Shown here in pieces: positions 1,008-14,027 of a stretch of 15,288 nt of DNA (the first letter of the stretch is position 1; the number at the start of each line of letters is the position of its first letter). This DNA comes from Trebonia sp. (lineage in GTDB: Bacteria > Actinomycetota > Actinomycetes > Streptosporangiales > Streptosporangiaceae): assembly GCA_030038035.1 (NCBI GenBank), contig JASHPP010000607.1, forward strand, positions 1 through 15,288, given 5' to 3'. The translations under genes were made by a program, and so were the position numbers. The notes beneath the pieces are model-generated. The model made no database searches, was not told where the DNA came from, and saw only the letters and a program-made list of their open reading frames with translations.

Positions 1008-4000
1008 TCATGCCCAGATGTCGCGCTCTGCCCCACTCCGCGCTATTGCCCTGCTCTGGGGGGACCATTCGTCGGCGAAGGTTTCCATCTGGTCCAGGAC
1101 GCGCTGGATGGCCTCCTTCTCGGCGTCCGGGGGGTAGCCGTGCCTGGCCAGGAGGCGCTTGATGGCGGAGCGGATCTTGGCCCGGACGTCGTCGCGGGCT
1201 ACCCAGTCGGTGGTGATGTCGCGGCGCAGGGTGCGGACCAGGTCGCGGGCGATGTCCGCTAGCTTGCCCTCGCCCATCCCGGCGACGGCGGACTCGTTCT
1301 GGGCGACCGCGTCGTAGAACGCCAGTTCGTCGGCGTTCAGCGGCGGGGCGAACGTGGCGCCGCGGTTGGCGTCGGCGGAGACCTCCTTGGCCAGGGCGAC
1401 CAGTTCGGCGATGATCTGGGCGGCGGTGAGGTTCTGGTTGGTGTACTTGCGCATCAGGTCTTCGAGACGCTCGGCGAAGGACTTCTGCTTGACGATGTTG
1501 TGCTTGGTGACGATGCGCATCTCCTGCTCGACCAGACGGCGCAGCGCCTCGATGGCCAGATGGGGGTTGCGCTGTGCGCGCATCCGGGCGATGAACGCCT
1601 CGTCCAGGTGGGACAGGTCAGGGCGGCCGATGCCCGCCGCCTGGTAGATGTCCGTGACGGCGCCGGCCTCGATGGCGCTGGCGGTGAGGGAGTTCAGGTA
1701 GAGCTCGACATCGGGCGGGACGGCCTCGCCGCGGGCCTTACGCTCCTCAGCGTCGAACCTGGCGTTCAGCATCCGGACTTCTTCGAAGAACGCGATGTCG
1801 TCACGCAGGCCCGCCATCTCATTGCTACCACGGCAGATCGCATACATCCGGGCGAGCTGGCCGGCGGCGCGGCGGAAGCGTTCCGACAGGTTGAGCTCGC
1901 CCTCTTCGACCTGGTTGCCTGGCGTGGTCGGGTCGCGCAGGTAGTCGACCGCGCCAGTAACGGCGTTCCAGTACGCTCTGGGGCCGGTGGCCGCGCGGCG
2001 GGTCTGCCAGTCATATCCGGACAGGATCTCGTCGCTGATCACGGCCAGCACGTCCCTGACCTTGGCGACCGCGTCCTCGACGTCCTTGCCCATGGGCTTG
2101 GTGTTCTGGTCGCGCGTGGTGTACTCCGCGAGCGCCTCGAAGAGTTTTTCCGTGAGCGGCGCGTAGCCGACGAGCAGACCGTCCTGCTTGTTGCGGAACG
2201 TGCGGTTGACCCTGGCCAGGGCCTGCATGAGCGCTGCGCCCCTCATCGGCTTGTCGACGTACATGGTGTGCAGCGGCGGCGAGTCGAAGCCGGTGAGCAG
2301 CATCGACTGGACAATAAGCAACTCAAGCTCGTCGTCGGGATCCTTGGCACGCTGCTGGATGATCTTGTTCTGTGCGGGGCGGCGGACGTGCTGGTAGATC
2401 TTGGGCTCGTCGCTCGGGGAGCCGGTGTAGACGACCTTGATCTTGCCCTTGTCGGCATCCTCGCTGTGCCAGTCCGGCTTTATGGCGATAATTCGCTCGT
2501 AGAGGTCGGCGCAGATCTCCCGGGTGGCGCAGACGATCATGCCCTTGCCCGGGACGCCGATGAACTTGCGCATCTCGGCGCTGCGGGCCGCCCAGTGCGC
2601 GACCACGTCCTCGCTGAGCTTGCGCACCCGGTCCGGTGCGCCGTACACGCGGTTCATCGCCGCGACTCGCTGCTGGATGCGCTCGCGCTCGGAGTCGTCC
2701 AGCCCCGCGGTGATCTCGTCGGCCGCCTCGTCGATCTCCTTCGCGTCCATGCCCTTGGGCAGGTTCAGTTCGATGAGGCGGGACTCGTAGTAGACCGGGA
2801 CGGTCGCGCCGTCCTGGACGGCCTGGGTCAGGTCGTAGATCAGCTCGATGTACTCACCGAAGACATCGCGGGTGTTCCGGTCCGCGAACGAGATCGGGGT
2901 GCCGGTGAACGCGATGAACGTGGCGTGCGGCAGCGCGTCGCGCAGGTGCCGCGCGTAGCCGTTCAGGTCGTCGTAGTGGGAGCGGTGCGCCTCGTCGACG
3001 ATCACGATCACGTTGCGGCGGTCGGACAGGAGCGGGTGCGGCCAGCCGTTGTCGCGTTCCTCCTTGGTCCTGCCGAACTTCTGCAGCGTGGTGAAGATGA
3101 TTCCGCCCATCCGGCGGTTGGCCAGCTCGGTGCGGAGCTCGTCACGGGTGATTACCTGAAGAGGCTGCTCCGGCAGCAGGTCGCTAGCCTGGAAGGTGTC
3201 GAAGAGCTGATCGTCCAGGTTTGTCCGGTCGGTGAGGACCACGATCGTCGGGTTGCCGAGCGATGGGTGGGTGAGTATCTGGTTGGCGTACAGCTCCATT
3301 TCCAGCGACTTTCCAGAGCCCTGGGTATGCCACACCACCCCGGCGCGGCCGTCGCCGCGAACCGCCTCGATCGTCTTGCCGACCGCTTCAGAAACCGCGA
3401 AGTACTGGTGTGGCTTGGCGAGGCGCTTGAGCAGAGTGCCGTCGGTGTGGGCGAACGCGATGTAGCCGGTGACCAGGTCAAGGAAGCGCGCGTGCGGGAA
3501 CATGCCGTGCAGCAGCAGCATGATGGGCTGATCGATATCCCGAACGGCCGGTTGTTTCACCGGATGCCCGTCATCATCGACGCTCCACGGGGCGAAGTGC
3601 TCGAACGGCGTGAACGCGGTACCGCACAGCGCACCGGGACCGTCGGAGACCACGCAGATCTCGTTGCAGCGGAACGCCAGCGGCAGCTCGCCCACGTAGG
3701 TCCGCAGCTGGGCGTGCGCGTCCTTCAGCGCGCTACCGTCGGCGGTGGACTTCTTCAGCTCGATGAAGCCCAGTGGCAACCCGTTGACGTACAGCACCAC
3801 GTCGAAACGGCGGCGGTGCTCCCCCTCCACCACCGTCACCTGGTGGGCGGCCATGAAGTCGTTACGCCCCGGGTCGCGGGGGTCGATCAGCCGGATCGTC
3901 GGGTTCTGCACCGCACCGTACTTGTCGGTATAGGTGACGGCGCGGATGCCCCGGGTCAGGAACTCGTGCATCCGCAGGTTCTCGGCCCGCGCGTCCCGCG

Positions 4001-4229
4001 AGGTCGCGGTTAGCACGATCTGTACCGCGTCCTCGACCGCCGACGGGGGCAGCGCCGGGTTGATCGCCGCGATCGCCTCGCGCAGCCGCCACGGAATGAT
4101 CAGCTCACTCCACGACTCCCGCTCCCCCGACCCCGGCGCGATCTGCTTCCCGTCCTTGGGCTCCCAGGCAAGCTCGCCCAACTCGTCCATGACGAGCTGC
4201 TCCCACGCACTCTCCGACATCCCCGCCAT
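1008..4229 (-). CDS. hsdR: Type I restriction endonuclease subunit R (HsdR)
   Basis: This 1073-residue protein is the motor and nuclease of a type I restriction-modification complex: it translocates DNA using ATP and cuts away from the recognition site. A PD-(D/E)xK nuclease centre is visible at about residues 143-159 (FDVV, then IELKK; D143, E157, K159). Superfamily 2 helicase motifs follow in order: Walker A TQGSGKS at 302-308, DEAH at 412-415, FTGTP at 441-445, LLTGFDSP near 645, and ALARVNRTFR near 670. All look intact and the length is normal for HsdR. I chose the ATG at 4229 because it overlaps the hsdS stop as TGATG and has GAGG ten bases upstream. A GTG one codon earlier and an ATG three codons later are alternatives. 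It is the last gene of the operon. Unmodified foreign DNA is the expected substrate. Confidence 0.95.
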   Translation of the reverse strand: MAGMSESAWEQLVMDELGELAWEPKDGKQIAPGSGERESWSELIIPWRLREAIAAINPALPPSAVEDAVQIVLTATSRDARAENLRMHEFLTRGIRAVTYTDKYGAVQNPTIRLIDPRDPGRNDFMAAHQVTVVEGEHRRRFDVVLYVNGLPLGFIELKKSTADGSALKDAHAQLRTYVGELPLAFRCNEICVVSDGPGALCGTAFTPFEHFAPWSVDDDGHPVKQPAVRDIDQPIMLLLHGMFPHARFLDLVTGYIAFAHTDGTLLKRLAKPHQYFAVSEAVGKTIEAVRGDGRAGVVWHTQGSGKSLEMELYANQILTHPSLGNPTIVVLTDRTNLDDQLFDTFQASDLLPEQPLQVITRDELRTELANRRMGGIIFTTLQKFGRTKEERDNGWPHPLLSDRRNVIVIVDEAHRSHYDDLNGYARHLRDALPHATFIAFTGTPISFADRNTRDVFGEYIELIYDLTQAVQDGATVPVYYESRLIELNLPKGMDAKEIDEAADEITAGLDDSERERIQQRVAAMNRVYGAPDRVRKLSEDVVAHWAARSAEMRKFIGVPGKGMIVCATREICADLYERIIAIKPDWHSEDADKGKIKVVYTGSPSDEPKIYQHVRRPAQNKIIQQRAKDPDDELELLIVQSMLLTGFDSPPLHTMYVDKPMRGAALMQALARVNRTFRNKQDGLLVGYAPLTEKLFEALAEYTTRDQNTKPMGKDVEDAVAKVRDVLAVISDEILSGYDWQTRRAATGPRAYWNAVTGAVDYLRDPTTPGNQVEEGELNLSERFRRAAGQLARMYAICRGSNEMAGLRDDIAFFEEVRMLNARFDAEERKARGEAVPPDVELYLNSLTASAIEAGAVTDIYQAAGIGRPDLSHLDEAFIARMRAQRNPHLAIEALRRLVEQEMRIVTKHNIVKQKSFAERLEDLMRKYTNQNLTAAQIIAELVALAKEVSADANRGATFAPPLNADELAFYDAVAQNESAVAGMGEGKLADIARDLVRTLRRDITTDWVARDDVRAKIRSAIKRLLARHGYPPDAEKEAIQRVLDQMETFADEWSPQSRAIARSGAERDIWA

Positions 4230-5467
4230 CACGTCACATCCTCGACAGCCTTCTCCGCATCCCGCACGCGGATCTCCCCCGACATAAGCCTCGGCAACAG
4301 CGCGTCCCTCAGTTGGATGAGACTTCTCGATTCCTCTGCCGCTGCGACGATCCGATAACGCAAGGGCTCCGCTGCCGCCTCGAATTCAGCCAACGCACTT
4401 GGCTCCGGGACCTCTGCGAACGATAGGTCCAAATCTCGCTTGTTGAGATGGATTACCGTCGTTCCGGTTTTATGTCCTTCTAGCTCGCTTAGCGGCTTTC
4501 GTAGAACTTCCCGGACGAAAGACCGCCCGCCCTCCTCGGCCAAGGGGCGACCGCGAAGGACTCGCTGATTCAATAGCACCGACTCCCCGAGCCAGAATGC
4601 GGGGCGGAATTCTGCATCCATTCCGGCAACCACATCGCCAGGCTGCACAACCACATCCCTCGCGATCCGCTCTGTTGTCCACACTTGGGGGGCGAAAGTC
4701 TTGATATCTCTGATCCGGAGAAGCGGAAGTCCCTGTTCATCGCTATTGAAACTATCCGAAGAGAACGGCAGTCCGAAGTCAAAGGCTATCACGTCGCCTA
4801 GCGGGGGCGCGGTTGATCCCGGCCGTTCTAGGGCTTGCACAAAGAGCGTGGATATCAATTCGGACGCCAGGCCAACGATCCGGTCGTTGACGGCGATCTT
4901 GTCGTCGAGTGCGCCGAGGACGTCAGCTATTCCCGACTGCTCACTCATCGGGGGTACCAAGACAGGCAAGGAGCGGATCGTGGGAAGATTCAGGCGTTCG
5001 GCGACTGATCCATCACGGAAACCGTGAATGTACGTGGCCATAATTGGCGAGTTCAGCCAGTAACGCAGGAAACGGAAGCCGACTACCGACCTGTCGGGCC
5101 TAATTAGAACCATCCGCTGACCGAGGCAAACCCGTACGCTAGGCGGCACCTCGGCGGCGATTCCGAAGTAGGTCCCCTCCCGGCTATACAGCAAGTCGCC
5201 GCGCTTGGGCTCAGCTCTCGTGACGCGTTCGCGGTAAGTCTCTTCGGAAACATGCCCAGCAGATGCCGCAAGAAAGACACCTGACAAAATGTCTTGCGTG
5301 CGGACGACGTACGGACCTGTCGTGGTCAGCTTTGGTGTTGAGTGTGGACAGTCGTATATGCCTGCGCATACCTCTTCAAGACGCCTCCATGACCATTCTT
5401 CAGGAAGATCACGAGTGTTCGCTGACACGCGAAGCATCGCTTCGCTGATAGACGAGTCGGCGTCCAT
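4229..5467 (-). CDS. hsdS: Type I restriction-modification specificity subunit S (HsdS)
   Basis: The 412-residue product should read the bipartite DNA target for both modification and cleavage. Two target-recognition regions are visible, about residues 22-190 (opening WRRLEEVC, ending with a PPMSEQSGIADVLGALDDKI spacer helix) and about 225-400 (opening PLGDVIAFDFG, ending LRDALLPRLMSGEIRV, a typical HsdS C-terminus). The ATG at 5467 is chosen because it overlaps the hsdM stop as TAATG and has GGAGAGG eight bases upstream; an in-frame start at 5518 would overlap hsdM by 52 bases without benefit. The stop overlaps the hsdR start. Base composition is visibly more AT-rich than in hsdM or hsdR, as expected for target domains exchanged between lineages. 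The recognised sequence cannot be predicted by eye. Confidence 0.92.
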   Translation of the reverse strand: MDADSSISEAMLRVSANTRDLPEEWSWRRLEEVCAGIYDCPHSTPKLTTTGPYVVRTQDILSGVFLAASAGHVSEETYRERVTRAEPKRGDLLYSREGTYFGIAAEVPPSVRVCLGQRMVLIRPDRSVVGFRFLRYWLNSPIMATYIHGFRDGSVAERLNLPTIRSLPVLVPPMSEQSGIADVLGALDDKIAVNDRIVGLASELISTLFVQALERPGSTAPPLGDVIAFDFGLPFSSDSFNSDEQGLPLLRIRDIKTFAPQVWTTERIARDVVVQPGDVVAGMDAEFRPAFWLGESVLLNQRVLRGRPLAEEGGRSFVREVLRKPLSELEGHKTGTTVIHLNKRDLDLSFAEVPEPSALAEFEAAAEPLRYRIVAAAEESRSLIQLRDALLPRLMSGEIRVRDAEKAVEDVT

Positions 5468-7074
5468 TAGATCAACCTCTCCAGTTGCTCGCGGACGACC
5501 TGCTCCAAGCGAGCGCATTCGTCGAAGTGGGCGAAGAGTTCCTTCTTGAGGCGGTCGATCTTTTCCACGATTGGCTCGGCGTCGGTGTCATCGACCTCAG
5601 CGGCGCCTACGTAGCGGCCCGGGGTGAGGATGTGGTCTTGCTTGCGGACCTCTTCGAGGGATGCTGAGTAGCAGAAGCCGGGGATGTCCTCGTACTTCTG
5701 GCCCGCGTTTCGGGCCGAGGCAGTGCCGCGCCAGGCGTGGTATGCGCCGGCGATCTTGGCGATGTCATCGGTGGTGAGGATGCGCTCGGTGCGGTCCACC
5801 ATCGTGCCCATGGACCTGGCGTCGATGAAGAGGAACTCACCGCGCCGGTCGACCAGGTGCCTGGACGCCTGGGGACCCTTGTTGTTGGAGAAGAACCACA
5901 GGCACGCGGGAATCTGCGTCGTCCGGAAGAGTTGCGGGGGCAGGGCGACCATGCACGCGACCAGGTCGGCCTCGATGAGAGCCTTGCGGATCTCGCCCTC
6001 GCCGGATTGCTTGGAGGACATCGACCCGTTGGCCAGGACCACGCCGGCGGTGCCGTTGGTGCTGAGCTTGTAGACGATGTGCTGAAGCCAGGCGAAGTTC
6101 GCATTGCCCGCCGGGGGGACGCCATAGCGCCAGCGGGGGTCATCTGTCTTGCGATACCAGTCCGAATCGTTGAACGGGGGGTTGGCCAGGATGAAGTCGG
6201 CCTTCTTATCGGAGTGCTTGTCGGCGTAGAAGGTGTCTTCCCATCGGGAGGACAGGTCGCCGTTGATGCCGTGGATGGCCAGGTTCATCTTCGCCAGCCG
6301 CCAAGTGCGTTCGTTGGACTCCTGACCGTAAACAGCGATGTCGTCACGCTTTCCTCTATGTGCAAGAACGAATGACTCCGCCTGGACGAACATGCCGCCC
6401 GAGCCGCAGCACGGGTCGTAGACCCGGCCGGAGTACGGTTCCAGGACCTCGACGAGGACCTTGACCACGCTGGCGGGAGTGTAGAACTCGCCGCCGCGCT
6501 TGCCCTCGGCGCGGGCGAACATTTCCAGGAAGTACTCGTAGACCTCGCCGAGGACGTCGCGGGCCTTCTTCTCGCCGTGGCCGGTGAAGCGGGCGTCGCT
6601 GATCAGGTCGACCAGTTCGCCGAGGCGGCGCTGGTCGACGTTGTCGCGGTTGAAGATCTTCGGCAGGACGCCGGTCAGGGATGCGTTCGTCTTCATGATC
6701 GCGTCCATCGCGTTGTCGATCAGCTCGCCGATGCCCGCGCTCTTGGCCTGGGACGCGAGGTGGTCCCAGCGGGCGCCCTCGGGCACCCAGAAGATGCCCT
6801 CGCCGGTGTACTCGTCCTTGTCGTCGAGGAACTCCCCGCGCCGCGCCTCGGGGATGGCGTCGGCGAGGAGCTCGGCGCGGATCGCCTCGCGACGCTCGGC
6901 GAAGGCGTCGGAGACGTACTTGAGGAAGACCAGGCCGAGCACGAAGTCCTTGTACTGGGCGGCGTCCATTGAGCCGCGGAGTTTGTCGGCTGCCCGCCAG
7001 AGCACGGCGTGCAGTTCGGCCGTGGTCTGGGTGCCCGGGAGCGCCGGGTCGTCCTTCTTCTTCCGCGCAGGCAT
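5467..7074 (-). CDS. hsdM: Type I restriction-modification DNA methyltransferase subunit M (HsdM)
   Basis: This 535-residue N6-adenine methyltransferase should use S-adenosylmethionine to methylate the site chosen by HsdS. An N-terminal helical HsdM domain (about 15-150) is followed by RGGEFYTP near 193-200, the SAM-binding motif I DPCCGSGG at 220-227 and the catalytic motif IV NPPF at 298-301, all intact. Length is normal. The start ATG at 7074 has GAGGA seven bases upstream and overlaps the stop of the preceding gene as TAATG. The stop likewise overlaps the hsdS start. Coupled translation with its neighbours is likely. It is the clear catalytic partner in contrast to the degenerate methylase-like protein encoded just upstream. 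Confidence 0.95.
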
Positions 7075-9170
7075 TACTGTTCCTCTTCGCTGGGTTCGTC
7101 GTTGGTGAGAGTCAGTGTTCCATCGACGAGGCCGCCGATGGCGACCTTGCGCAGTTCGTCGAGTATGTCGAGTTCCTTCCTCACGAGGTCGCGGCGGGCG
7201 TCGAGCTCCGTCAGGAGCTGGTCGAGCCTGCGGACCTCGGCGGGGGCGGTGAGGAGCACGCGCTGCTCCTCCAGCGACCGGTCCCCGCCTGCGGGCCGAG
7301 TGGCCGCGTCGGCGGAAAGCAGGGCGGCGAGGACCCGGGGAGTGAACTGCTCGATCTCGGCGGCGGGGATGCGCAGGATGCGCACCGGGGACTCGGCGAT
7401 CGCGTAGCCGTGGGAGTCCACCATGACGCCGAAGCGCTGGCCGGTGGTGACCAGCACGTCGCCAGGCTGGGTGAGCCGGGCGCTGTGATAGTTGCGCGCG
7501 AAGGTCTCGCGGTCGACCCAGCGCTCGCCCGGCCGGCGGATGCCGAGCACCTCATCCGCACCGAGCACGGCGTGGTGACCGGTTGGCCGGATGTGGTGCG
7601 CGCGGATCCGCGTGCCCTGGTGCAGGCGCAGGCGTCTGCTCTTGAGCAACGCGCCGATCGTGTCCGACGCCGGATTCAGGTCCGCTGCCTGCAGCATCCC
7701 GGTAGAGACGTGGCGGCGGTCGGCGGTGGCGGTCTCACCGATCTCGTCGAGCTCGATTCCGAACCGGGTCACGTCGAGGACCCGCTGGCTCGCCTCGTTC
7801 GCGCGTTCCCTAGGGCTGACGGGACGGCGGTTCACGAGAAGAGAACGAGGCGGGTCGACCAGGTCGGCGACCGCTACCTGCTCGCCGTAGACGCGCTGGT
7901 GTGCCACTGGCGTAAAGCCCTCCCGCCGCCAGGTGGTCACGTCCTCGGCCAGGTCGCGGATGACATCGTCGGTGAGGTCCCGACCGGAGACATCCGCGAG
8001 CAGGACCCGGCCGCGCCACCGGGATGTGCGCGCTTGGGTGACCACCCACAGCGCGGTCTCATAGCCGGGCCGGAACGGGACCAGCCGCTTCGGCAGCCGG
8101 ATGATCGCCTCCACCATGTCGCTCGTCAGCAGTTTGGCGCGGGCACGCTCGGCCGGGGAGAACGCCCCGAGGTCGCCGGTCAGGACGTCCGCCGGTCCTA
8201 GGACCACGCCGAAGCGGCCCCGGGGCAACCGGACCGCCATGTCGTCTACCGCTGTCAACGCGCCGATCGCGTCGCGGGCCTCGACCGGCTGATAGGGAAG
8301 CTGGGTCACGATCACGTCGGGCTCGCCGCACTCGTCAGGCAGTTCCGCGCCGGCGCGGATATCCAGATCGCTGTCCGGGATGCCCTGGACGAGCATCCGG
8401 CGCCGGACCAGACGGGCCAGCGCCTTGTCCGGCTCAGCGGCGGCGACCCTGGGCGGGTTATCCGGGCCGAGCAGGTACACCACGGCGGCCAGCAGGTCGC
8501 CCGGGCCGGCCGCGGGATCGGCCAGCAGGAGCTGGCGCCCCGGCCGTGCGCGGTCGGCCGCGCCGCTGAGTTCCGCGATCAGATGTCCCAGCGGCCTGGC
8601 TATCGCGGCGGCAGCAGCCGCACCCGCGCCGAAACGATGCCGGGCAATCATCACCCTCTCGAACGCCGCCCCGCAGGTGTAGGACGCTTCGACCAGTTCG
8701 TCCACTAGGGCGATCAGCCAGGCCGCGGCAGGAGGAATGGAATGGATCTCGGTGAGAAGCACGCGATCGTTCGGATCGATCATCTCGGCCAGCGCGCGGG
8801 CCGCAGCGAGCGGATCACCCGCGCCGTCGGAAAGCGGCTCGTGCTCTCCTGCGCGATAGCGCAGGCAAAGCAGCGCGGTGACCGCAGCGATGGCATCGGG
8901 GCCGGGGTAGCTGGCCGCGAGGCCGGCCAGCATGAACAGGCTCACCTCCTGCTCGGCCCGTTCGCGGTTGATGCGGCCGGTCGCCAGCAGCCAGTCGGCG
9001 ACCTCCCCCGGGTCGAACAGCGGACGGGCCTCGTCGCCGCCCACGGGCTTAGGGAAGCCGATGTCGCGGCGGGTCCACTTGGTGATGAGAGGACGGTCCT
9101 TCTCGGCAAGTTCGGCGACGTCCGTCAGCGACATGAGCACCCGGGGCGCGGTGAGCACGCTTCCCGCCAT
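7074..9170 (-). CDS. HTH / degenerate N6-methylase / HsdS-like target-recognition fusion protein
   Basis: A 698-residue protein with three parts. Residues ~15-65 look like an AlpA/MerR-type helix-turn-helix ([18 protein letters not shown], then FPKPVGG and [11 protein letters not shown]), as seen in some actinobacterial N-6 DNA methylases. Residues ~85-430 follow the HsdM methylase layout: the SAM-binding motif is DPAAGPGD at 218-225, but the catalytic NPP(F/Y) position reads QLPY at 290-293, so methyl transfer is doubtful. Residues ~490-605 resemble half an HsdS ([15 protein letters not shown], then a partition-type strand), followed by a coiled-coil at ~635-675. I chose the ATG at 9170 because GGAGG lies four bases upstream; a GTG at 9191 has none. 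It is the first gene of the hsd operon and its stop overlaps hsdM. The role is inferred: regulator, specificity adaptor or accessory subunit. Confidence 0.8.
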
Positions 9171-9207
9171 CGAACCTCCGTCCCTTGGCACCAGCTTGAC
9201 TCTCAGG

Positions 9208-9236
9208 AACCTACCACTACTAGTGGTCTGAAGAAT
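9208..9236 (-). promoter_or_regulatory. Candidate promoter for the hsd operon
   Basis: On the minus strand TAGGTT (9213-9208) fits an actinobacterial -10 box and would place the transcript start near 9201, leaving a ~31-nt leader that includes the GGAGG at 9179-9175. The -35 region (ATTCTT at 17-nt spacing) is a poor match, so this is tentative. A 15-bp palindrome touches the -10 box and fills most of the spacer. Confidence 0.35.
9213..9227. promoter_or_regulatory. 15-bp palindrome (possible operator)
   Basis: ACCACTACTAGTGGT is a perfect inverted repeat with 7-bp arms around one central base. It lies between the candidate -35 and -10 of the hsd operon, where a bound protein would block transcription. 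No binding protein is known from the sequence; the HTH protein encoded just downstream is one candidate. Confidence 0.5.
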
Positions 9237-9246
9237 TTCATGACTG

Positions 9247-9264
9247 TGACAACCTGGGTTGTCA
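9247..9264. promoter_or_regulatory. 18-bp palindrome in the divergent control region (possible operator)
   Basis: TGACAACCTGGGTTGTCA has two perfect 8-bp arms separated by two bases. It lies near the middle of the space between the divergent hsd operon and the DUF6119-like gene, where it could control either or both. Perfect arms of this length in a 139-bp intergenic region are unlikely to be noise. Confidence 0.55.
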
Positions 9265-9296
9265 GCAGCTTGAAGTTCTATTGGAGAAAGGCAGCC

Positions 9297-9302
9297 TACA
9301 TT
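9297..9302 (+). promoter_or_regulatory. Candidate -10 box for a leaderless DUF6119-like gene
   Basis: TACATT fits the TANNNT -10 pattern and ends seven bases before the GTG at 9310, so transcription would begin at or next to the start codon. This agrees with the absence of a Shine-Dalgarno at usable distance. A TTGAAG at 9270-9275 is too far away (21 nt) to be a good -35. Confidence 0.4.
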
Positions 9303-9309
9303 CTCGTAT

Positions 9310-10989
9310 GTGAACCGACCTAAGACGCGGCCTGCGACGCTCTACCGGTTCGTTTCGGACGTAGGCAGCAGCCACGAAGAAATGTTCGACGCGTTTTCAC
9401 AGTACGTCAGCCTGCGCTCGCTGGACGAGCGGCACGCCGACGTCGAATTCATCGAGGTGGCAGGGGTTCCGGCCATCTGGATCGGGATACAGGACGAGGA
9501 GAAGAAGGCGGAGTGGCTCCGGGACGCCGCCGTCACAACAGGGCTTGACCTCTCCTACAGCGAGCGCCGCGCCGGCGGGCTGCTATTGCTCGGCATCGAC
9601 GGGACTGCGTACGCGCTCAGCTTCGGGAACGGGCACCTGCTTATTCCGGACGAGCTCAAGGACGAACGGTTCGGGCTCAGCTTCCTGATCCGGCGGCTGG
9701 ATTCCGACCAGGTCCAGGAACTGGTCCGGCGGCGGGCCAACGCCCGCGGCCGGACTGACACCACCATGGTGGCCGTCGGCGCGCCGGTGTGGATGCTCGG
9801 TGTGGCGGAGAACGTCGAAATCATCAGGCGGATCGGCGGGCGTGCCAAGGACCTCAAGGTCACGTTCACGGCTGCGGGCGACCGCGGAGTCAACGTTGAG
9901 GGGGCTGGCGGCCTGAAGATGCGGTTCGGGGTCGAGCCGGATGCGCTCGTCTCGGACATCCGGGAATGCGCGCGGGTCTGCCGCGAGGAGCAGCCGGAAG
10001 CTGCACTCGAGTTCATCGAGCACGTCATGCCCGTGGGCGACGCCACCCTGAAGGGCGTGCTCAACGGAGAACTGGAGAAGCTGCTCTCCGGGACAGCGGC
10101 TGATGCGGGCGAGCGGCTGGTACCGGTCGTTCCGACCTCGATGCTTGAGTACTTCGGTCAGGCCCACAGTCTCACAGTCAAGATTGGCTACGGTAGGCCC
10201 GTCCCGGTACCGTCGCTGGAACTGGACGATATCCTTCGGGCCGCGCGCTCCCAGCGCAGCGGTGAGCGCGTCAAGGCGTTGCGCGGCGGGCGGATCTACC
10301 TCAACGCCGACGCTCGCGGAGAGGATGTCCTCGGGGGCGCGCGGGCCGACAAGTGGCTGGAAGCCAACATCTCCGTCGATGCACGCAGGTTCTTCCTCAT
10401 GGACGGCGAGTGGTTCGAAATCGGCGCCGATTACGTGCGCACCTCGCGCGACGCCATCACACCACTCTTCGCGGTCGTGCCGAGCGTTATCCTCCTCCCC
10501 TGGTCACTGCCGACGGGGCGCACAGAGAATGACTACAACAGGTACGTAGCGGCCAGGTCCGGCGGACGGCTGCTGTGCCTCGACCGGAATCAGACCGTCC
10601 GCGACCCGCTCGGGATTCGCAGCAGCCTGGAGATCTGCGACCTGCTCGGCCCGGACAACGAACTCATCCACGTCAAGCGCGCAAAGGGGTCCGCGCCACT
10701 CAGCCACTTGTTCTCTCAGGGCCTCAACTCGGCACAGGGCCTGATCGCCGGGCCCGCCATCGTGCGGGACCAGTTCGTTGACTGCGTCGCCTCGGTCCCC
10801 CACGGCCGGGTACTGCCGCGTGACTTCAAGCCGGCCAAGGTCATCTACGCGATCTTGCTGGAGAACGGCAAGCAACTCACCCCCGACACGCTGTTCCCGT
10901 TCTCCCAGGCGACACTCGCGCACGCCGCACGGATCCTGCATACCTACGGAATCACGGTCGAGGTCGCCGGCGTCCCAGGCGCGCCCTAA
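9310..10989 (+). CDS. TIGR04141/DUF6119-like 'sporadically distributed' protein
   Basis: The 559-residue product matches, from memory, the signature of the TIGR04141 (DUF6119) family: FFLMDGEWFEIGADYV near 361-376, YNRYVAARSGGRLLCLDR near 409-426, LEICDLLGP near 440, IHVKRAKGSAPLSHLFSQG near 453-471, and a C-terminal KVIYAILLEN ... LFPFSQATLAHAARIL. Length fits the family. Its molecular function is not established to my knowledge. No signal peptide or membrane segment is evident, so it is probably cytoplasmic. The GTG start is chosen because no in-frame ATG precedes it and a TACATT -10 box lies seven bases upstream, suggesting a leaderless message. It is divergent from the type I operon and shares a palindrome-rich control region with it, which suggests a linked, possibly defensive, role. 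Confidence 0.85.
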   Translation: MNRPKTRPATLYRFVSDVGSSHEEMFDAFSQYVSLRSLDERHADVEFIEVAGVPAIWIGIQDEEKKAEWLRDAAVTTGLDLSYSERRAGGLLLLGIDGTAYALSFGNGHLLIPDELKDERFGLSFLIRRLDSDQVQELVRRRANARGRTDTTMVAVGAPVWMLGVAENVEIIRRIGGRAKDLKVTFTAAGDRGVNVEGAGGLKMRFGVEPDALVSDIRECARVCREEQPEAALEFIEHVMPVGDATLKGVLNGELEKLLSGTAADAGERLVPVVPTSMLEYFGQAHSLTVKIGYGRPVPVPSLELDDILRAARSQRSGERVKALRGGRIYLNADARGEDVLGGARADKWLEANISVDARRFFLMDGEWFEIGADYVRTSRDAITPLFAVVPSVILLPWSLPTGRTENDYNRYVAARSGGRLLCLDRNQTVRDPLGIRSSLEICDLLGPDNELIHVKRAKGSAPLSHLFSQGLNSAQGLIAGPAIVRDQFVDCVASVPHGRVLPRDFKPAKVIYAILLENGKQLTPDTLFPFSQATLAHAARILHTYGITVEVAGVPGAP

Positions 10990-11167: not shown

Positions 11168-11289
11168 CGACATGTACCGGCCCCGATGAGCAGTGCATTC
11201 CCAAGCCGGGGACCGCACAACCGCGCTCGCCCTCTCCGTCCGCTGCCCGACGGACCGCCCCTGCTGGTGGCTGCGACCGGACCGCGCAG

Positions 11290-11632
11290 GGGAAGGGTTC
11301 GACGGTCCCGACCTGCGAGCCGCCCTGTCCGCGAGGCATCCCCTCACTGTCGCGCTACAGAGTGCCCTGTGGCTGCACGGGCTTGCCGCTCGGGCACCGG
11401 ACCGGCACGAGCTGGCGGCCCCGCCTGGCAGTGCGGTCCCTGTCTGCGTGAGACGCGGGATGCGCGTCGTCCGCTTCTCCGCCCGGCTCCCGGCAGCTCA
11501 GGTCGACCAGCTGCCCGTCTACCGGACGGCCGCGATCCTGGTCCACCTCGCCGCCGACCGGGCGACGTGCGGGGCGGGACGACGTTCGCCGAGGCGCTGC
11601 CAGAACTTGCCGCCCGGAGCACGGCCGAATGG
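11290..11632 (+). pseudogene. AbiEi-like (type IV antitoxin family) relic with frameshift
   Basis: One frame reads GPDLRAALSARHPLTVALQS, LWLHGLAARAPDRHELA and RGMRVVRFSARLPAAQVDQL through ILVHLAADR, a typical order of segments in actinobacterial AbiEi-type antitoxin proteins, where a C-terminal region follows the HTH domain. Near 11558-11562 similarity moves to another frame, which continues GDVRGGTTFAEALPELAARS and then stops resembling the family around 11632. A frameshift plus a missing N-terminal HTH and C-terminal end make it non-functional. No AbiEii nucleotidyltransferase toxin is next to it. The surrounding frame happens to remain open into the next genes, which could mislead an automatic annotation. 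Confidence 0.5.
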
Positions 11633-11767
11633 TCGACGGGCTTCTCCCGTTCGACCCCCGCACCCGGAAGGAGCCCGCACGAGCCGTATCACCACGGGCC
11701 CGGCCGACTCCCCATACGCCACAACGAAACAGGGCCGACACGACCCCTCAGCGCGAAATGAGCGAGG

Positions 11768-11773
11768 TATACT
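11768..11773 (+). promoter_or_regulatory. -10 box of a leaderless mazEF-like operon
   Basis: TATACT is a near-consensus -10 and ends exactly six bases before the ATG at 11780, which would be the first base of the transcript. No Shine-Dalgarno precedes the ATG. No good -35 is visible. The ATAC/GTAT half-sites at 11769-11772 and 11778-11781 overlap this box and could be where the antitoxin binds. Confidence 0.5.
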
Positions 11774-11779
11774 TTCGGT

Positions 11780-12013
11780 ATGGCTGATCCGATTACATTC
11801 CGTCCGACAGTTGAGGATACGCAGAACCTCGCGATCCTCACGGCAGATGGCACCAGCCCCACCCACGCGATCCGGCGCGCACTGGAGATCGCCGCGCACA
11901 ACAAGCGGCAGGAAGACCTGCGCGCCGACGCCGCGCGACTGGCGGCCAATCCGGAGTACCAGGCAGAGATCCGCGCGGTCCGCGAAGAACTGGACGAACT
12001 CCGTGCGTGGTGA
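11780..12013 (+). CDS. MazE-like ribbon-helix-helix antitoxin
   Basis: A 77-residue protein. The N-terminal ITFRPTVEDTQNLAILTADG followed by TSPTHAIRRALEIAAH fits a ribbon-helix-helix DNA-binding unit (strand, helix, turn, helix), and the Arg/Glu-rich helical C-terminus (about 40-77) is where such antitoxins clasp the toxin. It should neutralise the MazF-like product encoded next and repress its own promoter. The ATG at 11780 is preceded by a TATACT -10 box six bases upstream, pointing to a leaderless message. The downstream toxin gene starts inside its last codons, an 11-base overlap, so the two are translated together. Whether it is closer to MazE or CopG-type antitoxins cannot be fixed by eye. 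Confidence 0.75.
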   Translation: MADPITFRPTVEDTQNLAILTADGTSPTHAIRRALEIAAHNKRQEDLRADAARLAANPEYQAEIRAVREELDELRAW

Positions 12014-12320
12014 CGTCTACCGCCTCAGGAGGCCACGATCCGCCCAGGGGCGCGAACAGCAAGGCGAGCGCTACGCCGTCGTCGTCCAGGCCACCGCCTA
12101 CGACGATCTCTCCACGTGGCTGGTGGCCCCGACGACAACCAAGTCCTTCGGATCCCTGATCCACCCCAGCATCGAACTCCTCGGCCAGGACATCCGGGTA
12201 CTGGTCGAGCAGACCACCGCCGTCGACCCGCAGCGCCTCGGTGACCTCGCGGGTCGCCTGGACCCGGACGAACTCATGGAGATCAACGTCGCACTGCGCG
12301 CCGTGCTTGACCTCGAATGA
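12003..12320 (+). CDS. MazF/PemK-family endoribonuclease toxin
   Basis: A 105-residue protein of typical MazF length. It opens RGDVYRLRRP, followed by GREQQGERYAVVVQ, the GxEQxGxRxxVVV signature of the family. The Arg of GERYAVV and the Thr cluster in LVAPTTTKS correspond to the catalytic Arg and Thr of MazF ribonucleases, which cut mRNA at short sequences. The end DPDELMEINVALRAVLDL matches the C-terminal helix. The start is a GTG at 12003 inside the antitoxin gene; no later start keeps GDVY. Both key residues and full length are present, so the toxin looks active. The pair is a type II toxin-antitoxin module able to stabilise this stretch of chromosome or respond to stress or phage. Confidence 0.85.
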   Translation: MRGDVYRLRRPRSAQGREQQGERYAVVVQATAYDDLSTWLVAPTTTKSFGSLIHPSIELLGQDIRVLVEQTTAVDPQRLGDLAGRLDPDELMEINVALRAVLDLE

Positions 12321-13094: not shown

Positions 13095-14027
13095 GTGTTC
13101 CGCCGGGTCTTCGGCGTGCCGGCGAACGCCGCGTCCCAGCTGGGCGCGGTGCTGCCGCCGGACCTGGCCGGCCGGCTGGACCTGGGCCGGCTGGCCCCGG
13201 TGCCGGGCAGCTTCGTCGACGAGGCGCTCAAATGGCGGCACTCCGACGTGCTGTTCACCGCCCCGCTCGACGGACGCGACGCGTTCGTGTACGCCCTGAT
13301 CGAGCACCAGAGCAGCGACGACCCGCTCATGGCGTTCCGGATGCTGCGCTACGTCACCCGGATCTGGGACCAGTACGAGCGCGAGCACCCGGGCACCCGG
13401 CGGCTCCCGGCCGTCATCCCGCTGGTCGTCTACCAGGGACCCGACCGGTGGACAAGCCCTGTGCAGCTGCTGAACGTGATCGACCTCGATCCCGAAGGCA
13501 AGCAGGCGGTGCAGGCGTACCTGCCCCGGTTCGGGTTCCTGCTCGACGACTTGTCCCGCATCAGCGAGGATCAGCTCCTTAACCGGAAGCTGACCCCGTC
13601 CGCGCGGGTCACCCTGCTGGTGCTGAAGACCGCGCCAGGCAACCCGCAGATCACCGCCCTGCTGCGGCGGTGGGAAGGCCAACTGCGGGCGGTGCTGGAC
13701 CAGCCCGGCGGCGGCGAGGCGTTCCTGGCGATCTTGACGTACATTCAGCATGTGAGCGAGACACCGGGCGGCGAACTGCATGACCTGGCCGCCTCGCTCG
13801 GCCCGGACGCAGAGGAGGCGTACGTGACCACCGCAGAAATGCTCCGCGCCGAAGGCGAGGCCCGCGGCAAGGCCGAAGACATCCTCGTGGTCTTCGAGCA
13901 GCGCGGCATCGACGTGGACGGCAAGTCGCGCGCGCGGATCGAGTCGTGCACGGAGCTGGGCACCCTGAACGGCTGGTTCCGCCGCGCGTTCAAGGTCGAC
14001 CAGGCCAGCGACCTCTTCGGGGAGTAG
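13095..14027 (+). CDS. Rpn-family recombination-promoting nuclease / putative transposase
   Basis: The 310-residue frame opens at GTG 13095 with FRRVFGVPANAASQL and carries the PD-(D/E)xK core of Rpn (YhgA-like, Transposase_31) proteins: WRHSDVLF with D51, then ALIEHQSS with E70 and Q72, then MAFRMLRY. Members are DNA endonucleases that promote recombination without RecA. A C-terminal region with AEMLRAEGEARGKAEDIL is also usual. The family signature extends upstream in the same frame (SPHDAV before FRR), yet no start codon exists there. The likely native start, ATG 12997 with a leaderless -10 box, is in another frame, and the two frames must meet around 13040-13075. The gene therefore seems frameshifted near its N-terminus, or uses the GTG and makes a slightly shortened protein. 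Catalytic residues are intact. Confidence 0.8.
   Translation: MFRRVFGVPANAASQLGAVLPPDLAGRLDLGRLAPVPGSFVDEALKWRHSDVLFTAPLDGRDAFVYALIEHQSSDDPLMAFRMLRYVTRIWDQYEREHPGTRRLPAVIPLVVYQGPDRWTSPVQLLNVIDLDPEGKQAVQAYLPRFGFLLDDLSRISEDQLLNRKLTPSARVTLLVLKTAPGNPQITALLRRWEGQLRAVLDQPGGGEAFLAILTYIQHVSETPGGELHDLAASLGPDAEEAYVTTAEMLRAEGEARGKAEDILVVFEQRGIDVDGKSRARIESCTELGTLNGWFRRAFKVDQASDLFGE

Follow-up and report, generated by a model that had tools for sequence, protein, structure and literature searches.

A putative dead methylase, a locus-specific palindrome and exchangeable accessory genes at a type I restriction-modification locus

The 15,288-nucleotide stretch of Trebonia sp. DNA analysed here (contig JASHPP010000607.1; referred to in full as the window) carries a variant type I restriction-modification locus, in which hsdM, hsdS and hsdR are preceded by a gene for a protein composed of a helix-turn-helix (HTH) domain, a methylase-like (MTase) body and a target recognition domain (TRD), hereafter PM. 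Across related loci, we observed a fixed gene order, the loss of the catalytic residue from PM, a conserved palindrome upstream of PM, a constant PM TRD next to a specificity subunit that turns over, and exchangeable neighbouring genes, of which a divergent DUF6119 gene is the representative in the window. We consider it probable, at roughly 60%, that PM is a catalytically dead, operator-binding autoregulator of a four-gene type I system whose accessory gene is exchangeable. The features of the window are as follows:

7074..9191, minus strand: PM, HTH-pseudomethylase-TRD protein, 705 residues from GTG 9191
5467..7074, minus strand: hsdM, catalytic N6-adenine methyltransferase subunit (PF02384, N6_Mtase, 2e-108; HsdM_N, 1.5e-27)
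4229..5518, minus strand: hsdS, specificity subunit (PF01420, Methylase_S, 5e-7; PADLOC Specificity_I, 7e-52, in two stretches)
1008..4232, minus strand: hsdR, type I restriction subunit (TIGR00348, 2e-142; PF04313, PF18766, PF11867)
9247..9264, no strand: palindrome TGACAACC-TG-GGTTGTCA, putative operator in the divergent intergenic region, two mismatches against the family consensus
9310..10989, plus strand: divergent DUF6119/TIGR04141 accessory gene (PF19614, 4e-104; TIGR04141, 3e-104)
9213..9227, no strand: second palindrome, ACCACTA-C-TAGTGGT, in this locus only and not among the palindromes listed for relatives

The four-gene core and its methylase-like head

The 59 PM loci compared here comprise the window, 13 GTDB contigs, 10 loci from a class sample and 35 from an order and a family sample. 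The class sample held 394 genomes searched with PM at E<=1e-20, from which 10 of the 11 loci obtained were kept and for which PM counts are lower bounds, as two candidates were scored per genome; 26 of 297 genomes in the order sample were PM-positive at E<=1e-60, and 17 of 250 in the family sample. One further locus (L068, genome G123) was removed from the set, its HTH being that of PM2, a distant HTH-methylase described below, and its motif IV reading HPPF.

PM-hsdM-hsdS-hsdR was complete, in the same order and on the same strand, in 52 of the 59 loci, a few of which have one or two genes between hsdS and hsdR (e.g., L004, L009, L069). Five loci are broken by a contig end (L005, L062, L064, L102, L105) and two lack hsd genes, namely L066 with a divergent PM-like gene and L067 with a truncated PM. 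The neighbourhood of the first gene and hsdMSR, which the first-pass annotation had wanted compared with chance, was examined in these 59 loci and the 394-genome sample; the linkage is tight, and the four-gene core is fixed in this variant of Actinomycetes. Consistently, PM distances follow those of HsdM and HsdR (Mantel 0.82 and 0.82, p 0.001; 46 loci). In a 246-genome sample, 24 hsdM-like loci were found, of which 11 have a PM match in the flank (weak in L149 and L152) and 13 have none there, L165 being without upstream DNA; these flanks reach at most about 1.5 kb, so that some PM genes may be missed. PM is tied to hsdMSR, yet hsdMSR can exist without PM, and since hsdM relatives without an adjacent PM exist, PM looks like an add-on.

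The three classic genes, taken to be intact from the start, are open reading frames (ORFs) at the positions given, with the expected motifs in hsdM and hsdR. Both DPCCGSGG, the S-adenosylmethionine (SAM) motif I, and the catalytic NPPF are intact in hsdM, while GSGKS, DEAH and a D-x13-E-x-K nuclease motif can be read in hsdR, whose profile matches comprise an HSDR_N nuclease, a SWI2/SNF2 motor and a T1RH-like C-terminus. The hsdS ORF overlaps both hsdM and hsdR in the same operon. With the features of type I membership present in HsdM, HsdR and HsdS at the sequence level, these are type I restriction-modification genes, predicted to cleave unmodified DNA in an ATP-dependent manner.

The operon does begin with an extra protein of about 700 residues derived from type I parts, as first described, and the size of 698 residues given for it agrees with the ATG at 9170, which is favoured by homologues including the closest one (P0006, 698 residues). 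Counted over 705 residues, PM has its HTH at about 18-72, the pseudo-methylase at about 76-455 and the TRD with a coiled coil at about 495-700, i.e., an HTH fused to a methylase fold as in HTH-methylase dual-function regulators. The [NDS]PP[YFW] catalytic motif IV of active N6-adenine methyltransferases is not matched by PM, which reads TQLPY in the window and TQ[ILV]PY in most homologues, instead of NPPF. The N/D/S position is lost in all 121 sequences compared (Q in 116, H in 5), and the loop that follows motif IV in HsdM and in the related HTH-methylases is lacking from 7 of 7 PM sequences aligned with them. The SAM-motif residues D225, G231, D232 and L233 are kept in 121 of 121, position 253 (the acidic motif II residue) is E or D in 119 and Y300 is found in 120. 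The earlier designation "pseudomethylase" therefore holds up, and PM is predicted to be a non-catalytic methylase.

PM is a real protein family. Two homologues (90 and 85% identity) are named as proteins of Trebonia metagenome-assembled genomes, and a RefSeq-derived plasmid annotation labels PM a hypothetical protein. A search of viral contigs returned no PM homologues, and among titles and abstract beginnings, with few subscription journals covered, no paper on the PM gene or its palindrome was found.

A palindrome upstream of PM and a constant target recognition domain

An inverted-repeat search of the regions upstream of PM repeatedly returned the same palindrome, with the consensus TGATAACC-NN-GGTTATCA, an element absent from the first-pass annotation. 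Scanned between -400 and +60 relative to the start of the PM match, it is present within four mismatches in 55 of the 59 loci and within three in 45; 56 matches fell in 26,800 upstream positions versus 24 in the other 1,085,216 positions of these loci. An operator-like site conserved at its own promoter is a feature that PM shares with HTH-methylase dual-function regulators. The copy in the window, TGACAACCTGGGTTGTCA, lies at 9247-9264 between the divergent genes, where 0.01 would be expected in the window by chance. Variants among the four-mismatch matches include TGATAGCA..TGCTATCA in L067 and reversed half-sites in L115 and L118. In the latter two, the operator-like site is TGTTATCCCGGGATAACA, as though the half-sites had been turned round. 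The four loci missed by the scan are L121 and L122, which combine an altered HTH with TGATAGCA..TGCTATCA-like sites, L066, with a GATAAGGGCCCTTATC site, and L108, without upstream DNA. In 5 of 11 RmuC loci (L090, L091, L093, L094, L106), a second copy precedes rmuC, at about 1.94 kb upstream of PM. L116 and L117 have a further copy (one mismatch) at a distance of about 7.4 kb upstream of PM, past the 3' end of a very large gene region encoding a helicase and an MTES_1575 nuclease.

At the genome level, the palindrome occurred with at most one mismatch in 9 of the 394 genomes, with one site in each. In eight of these, the site is located just upstream of PM, and in the ninth (G329) it lies beside PM and SMC remnants, a decayed PM locus that had escaped the PM search. 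In the remaining PM genomes of this sample, the sites are variants or deviate by more mismatches. As a control, the pattern written backwards matched 2 of 394 genomes, neither of them with PM. Moreover, eight plasmid records showed hsdM similarity, five of which were examined (NZ_CP101138.1, judged by its length to be the G146:C2 plasmid, and L139, L140, L141 and L142). L139 and L140, both outside the motif derivation, have PM and a site within one mismatch, the PM of L139 being 93% identical to that of L063 and hence close kin of a locus used for the motif; the related hsd loci L141 and L142 have neither PM nor palindrome. Exact matches were also seen in 14 stretches of viral contigs, which may be chance. 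The joint change of HTH and site, together with genomes holding a single site, suggests that PM may bind the palindrome, and no other product shared by these loci has a recognisable HTH.

Further hints come from the comparison with HsdS. In 11 locus pairs with PM 82-97% and HsdR 88-97% identical, HsdS is only 22-37% identical (mean 28%), and the TRD of PM averages 0.89 identity, equal to the rest of the protein. As HsdS is swapped and the PM TRD stays constant, PM does not follow the changing target of the system. This bears on the proposal that PM is a structural type I subunit, i.e., a non-catalytic M/S-like partner of HsdM and HsdS adding a fixed DNA contact or allosteric control, with the palindrome read by the PM HTH in addition or by another factor. 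The invariant TRD beside a varying HsdS, the hsdM relatives lacking PM in a short flank (13 of 24, one lacking DNA there) and the locus-specific palindrome, which a subunit leaves unexplained, disfavour such a role, and we rate it as unlikely, albeit worth keeping in mind. The conserved palindrome points to regulation rather than to a specificity-subunit function. PacII M1M2S (PDB 7vru, 7vs4), one of the closest known systems, has two catalytic methylase chains; PM additionally has an HTH and its own TRD. Of the original idea of a non-catalytic second M/S-like subunit, the predicted lack of catalysis and the linkage to hsdMSR are thus retained, and the subunit role is disfavoured.

DUF6119 and the exchangeable neighbour position

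A DUF6119/TIGR04141-like gene indeed diverges from the control region of PM in the window, but the five genes do not form one fixed system as first proposed: four genes make up the core, next to which several neighbours, DUF6119 among them, can be exchanged. DUF6119 lies close to PM in 19 of the 59 loci, upstream in 16 and downstream in 3. Other neighbours, assigned by similarity to Pfam-annotated representatives, are SMC/RecF-like ATPases (11 loci), RmuC (11), DUF4352 close to PM (9), DndB-like proteins (3), an unnamed family (3) and a GHKL-ATPase (1), plus small genes without a Pfam match; some loci hold several accessory genes together. L006 and L108 entered this count with less than 1 kb of upstream DNA, and short DUF6119 matches in L007, L061, L102 and L105, which coincide with a small neighbouring gene (SM222), were excluded. 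An apparent DUF6119 fusion in L063 (a 960-residue ORF) was rejected, since NZ_CP101138.1 annotates two overlapping genes there and the N-terminus is a spurious extension; this ORF had also served as a query, hence the exclusion of the short matches.

In the 394-genome class sample, PM was found in at least 13 genomes (one paralogue dropped) and DUF6119 in 22, with both present in four (G002, G136, G146, G382; Fisher p 0.004). All four have PM and DUF6119 divergent and close to each other, with a small gene in between in G146 and a truncated PM in G136. The pairing seen in the window is recurrent, while the notion of a constant partner was not borne out. DUF6119 distances correlate moderately with those of PM, at 0.44 (Mantel, p 0.006; 14 loci), below the values for PM with HsdM and HsdR, and with those of HsdS at 0.20 (p 0.04).

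In 8 of the 22 DUF6119 genomes, DUF6119 is divergent to PM2 instead, and in the remaining 10 no HTH-methylase match was seen nearby; from this context, DUF6119 is a frequent partner of HTH-methylase genes and not a fixed fifth gene. PM2 is an HTH-N6-methylase covered by PADLOC model PDLC03037 (MTase_I), which the L071 copy matches, and shares the HTH and MTase layout of PM; M, S and R-like genes follow it in L071, L077 and L081. In contrast to PM, its motif IV reads NPPY/F, SPPF, DPPA/S or, in L068, HPPF (four, one and three of the eight DUF6119 loci for the first three), and these eight loci lack an exact match to the core of the TGATAACC site. A different multi-gene unit with the same DUF6119/HTH-methylase head is found in L074 (11659-19901), where genes for a protein kinase and a SNF2-type helicase, and one more gene, come after the HTH-methylase. 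HTH_31-DUF5753 regulators were observed in two DUF6119/PM2/hsd loci, between hsdS and an hsdR-like gene in L077 (3224-4063, minus strand) and downstream of hsdS in L083 (2322-3206, minus strand).

The DUF6119 assignment in the window is clear (349.5 bits versus a cut-off of 27 for Pfam, 349.4 versus 35 for NCBIfam), and the Pfam entry states no function. In an alignment of 152 sequences, which excludes four distant loci (L084-L087), the C-terminal residues E441, C443, D444, K456, H466 and Q470 are almost invariant. E441, D444 and K456 are each found in 151 of 152 with the spacing E-x-x-D-x11-K, and position 454 is H, L, M, C or S. The domain is possibly PD-(D/E)XK-like, and a nuclease function of DUF6119 is conceivable. 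No significant PDB match was obtained with Foldseek, nor any with hmmsearch against PDB sequences, and the N-terminal part resembled triphosphate tunnel enzymes and RnlA only weakly.

Further downstream, the frame 11193-12320 (plus strand) of the window encodes a PemK/MazF-like toxin domain at about codons 272-372 (PF02452, 1.7e-15), preceded by a weak AbiEi antitoxin domain match, and a YhgA-like putative transposase is located at 13095-14027 (plus strand; PF04754, 2.9e-50), which suggests a mobile or defence-rich stretch.

Regulation of the locus and related systems

According to the model we favour, HsdM, HsdS and HsdR would modify and cut DNA in the usual type I manner, and PM, as a methylase without catalysis, would serve as a DNA-binding switch of its own locus. 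It would bind the palindrome between the divergent promoters most likely through the HTH, with the MTase/TRD body aiding, and thereby restrain or time the expression of both the operon and the accessory gene diverging from it. DUF6119, the occupant of the exchangeable accessory position here, could act as a nuclease effector when restriction falls short.

Several observations weigh against an autoregulatory PM. The palindrome was counted in loci that yielded the motif, so that only G329 and the plasmids lie outside this set, and the 394-genome scan shares 13 genomes with the motif-derivation set. A sigma-70-like promoter was not found at 9100-9400. PM and HsdS distances are still weakly correlated (Mantel 0.26, p 0.001), a body of about 700 residues is large for a plain repressor, the kept motif I and acidic motif II residue mean that PM may bind SAM, and PM, being folded like a type I M subunit, could sit in the enzyme. 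Regarding the accessory gene, DUF6119 lies about 0.9-1.0 kb downstream of hsdR in L100, L101 and L103, co-directional and not divergent, and structural comparison gave weak matches for it, sequence comparison with the PDB none.

The retained SAM motifs and the M-subunit fold are also compatible with PM as a guard, i.e., a protein resembling a methylase that would detect anti-restriction by phages (through DNA mimics, e.g., Ocr or ArdA, or through SAM depletion) and then derepress the accessory effector. The best Foldseek match of PM is an Ocr-bound methylase, and RmuC, SMC/AAA and DUF6119 genes are among the neighbours. However, several type I M structures among the matches are Ocr- or ArdA-bound, so that the Foldseek match says little, and binding of such a ligand or inhibitor by PM is hypothetical. 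We regard a guard of this kind as improbable, and think it distinctly unlikely that PM is a guard repressor in the sense of an inactivated type I methylase decoy which, once engaged, leaves its single operator and so releases the restriction operon together with an exchangeable effector. Still less would we expect PM to be an active methylase of unusual chemistry, using Q for N in motif IV: motif I, the acidic motif II residue and Y300 are kept and PM is conserved rather than decaying, but the loss of N/D/S throughout and the missing loop make this highly improbable. A chance gathering in a defence island, to which the limited share of PM loci with DUF6119 and the MazF-like and YhgA-like genes of the window could be attributed, is scarcely credible given the recurrent gene order and locus-specific palindrome; it is contradicted for the four-gene core and possible for individual accessory genes.

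Compared with known systems, the locus shares with canonical type I restriction-modification the intact hsdM, hsdS and hsdR genes and the swapping of specificity subunits, and differs in the PM gene at its head and the dedicated palindromic site. M.Ecl18kI, M.SsoII and M.EcoRII belong to type II systems and are active as C5 methylases. They are described as dual-function methylase-repressors, in which a methylase is fused to a transcription factor, and inactive M.EcoRII still represses, but only with its sites methylated by another enzyme (PMC12707154, section 11). PM differs from these in being a pseudo-methylase of the N6 type, located at the head of a type I operon. RptR is a locus-linked type I regulator with an embedded extra defence unit and binds a palindrome, but it is small and encoded separately, its 6-bp site, TAGCTA, is present as three direct repeats, and no methylase body is mentioned in the abstract of that article (PMC12255303). 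The type II methylase-repressors and the type I repressor RptR are thus precedents for reading PM as a regulator.

Coupling of an accessory effector to type I genes is exemplified by PrrC of EcoprrI (PMC12707154), an anticodon nuclease within the hsd locus. DUF6119, in contrast, sits divergently. We know of no relation between PrrC and DUF6119. Likeness to MADS was seen at the level of models, with PADLOC mad1 matching the PM2 of L071 (7e-8), mad3 matching SMC neighbours (6e-25, 2e-22) and mad2 weakly matching PM. The window has no mad gene set (mad1-mad8); five of its proteins cross-match MADS models far below cut-off, and the NCBIfam MADS matches are likewise far below theirs. The term TIGR04141 does not occur in a BREX-diversity paper (PMC12839542).

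The safe activation of type I systems is poorly understood. In this context, the locus represents a type I variant with a dead-methylase head, a palindrome specific to such loci and an accessory gene that can be exchanged, and the wide distribution of this dead-methylase family, usually with one matching site per genome, makes regulator, target and regulon directly testable. DUF6119 and other genes are linked to restriction loci via a common control region, which provides a testable setting for DUF6119. If the proposed role is true, PM would be an enzyme turned into the switch of its own defence system.

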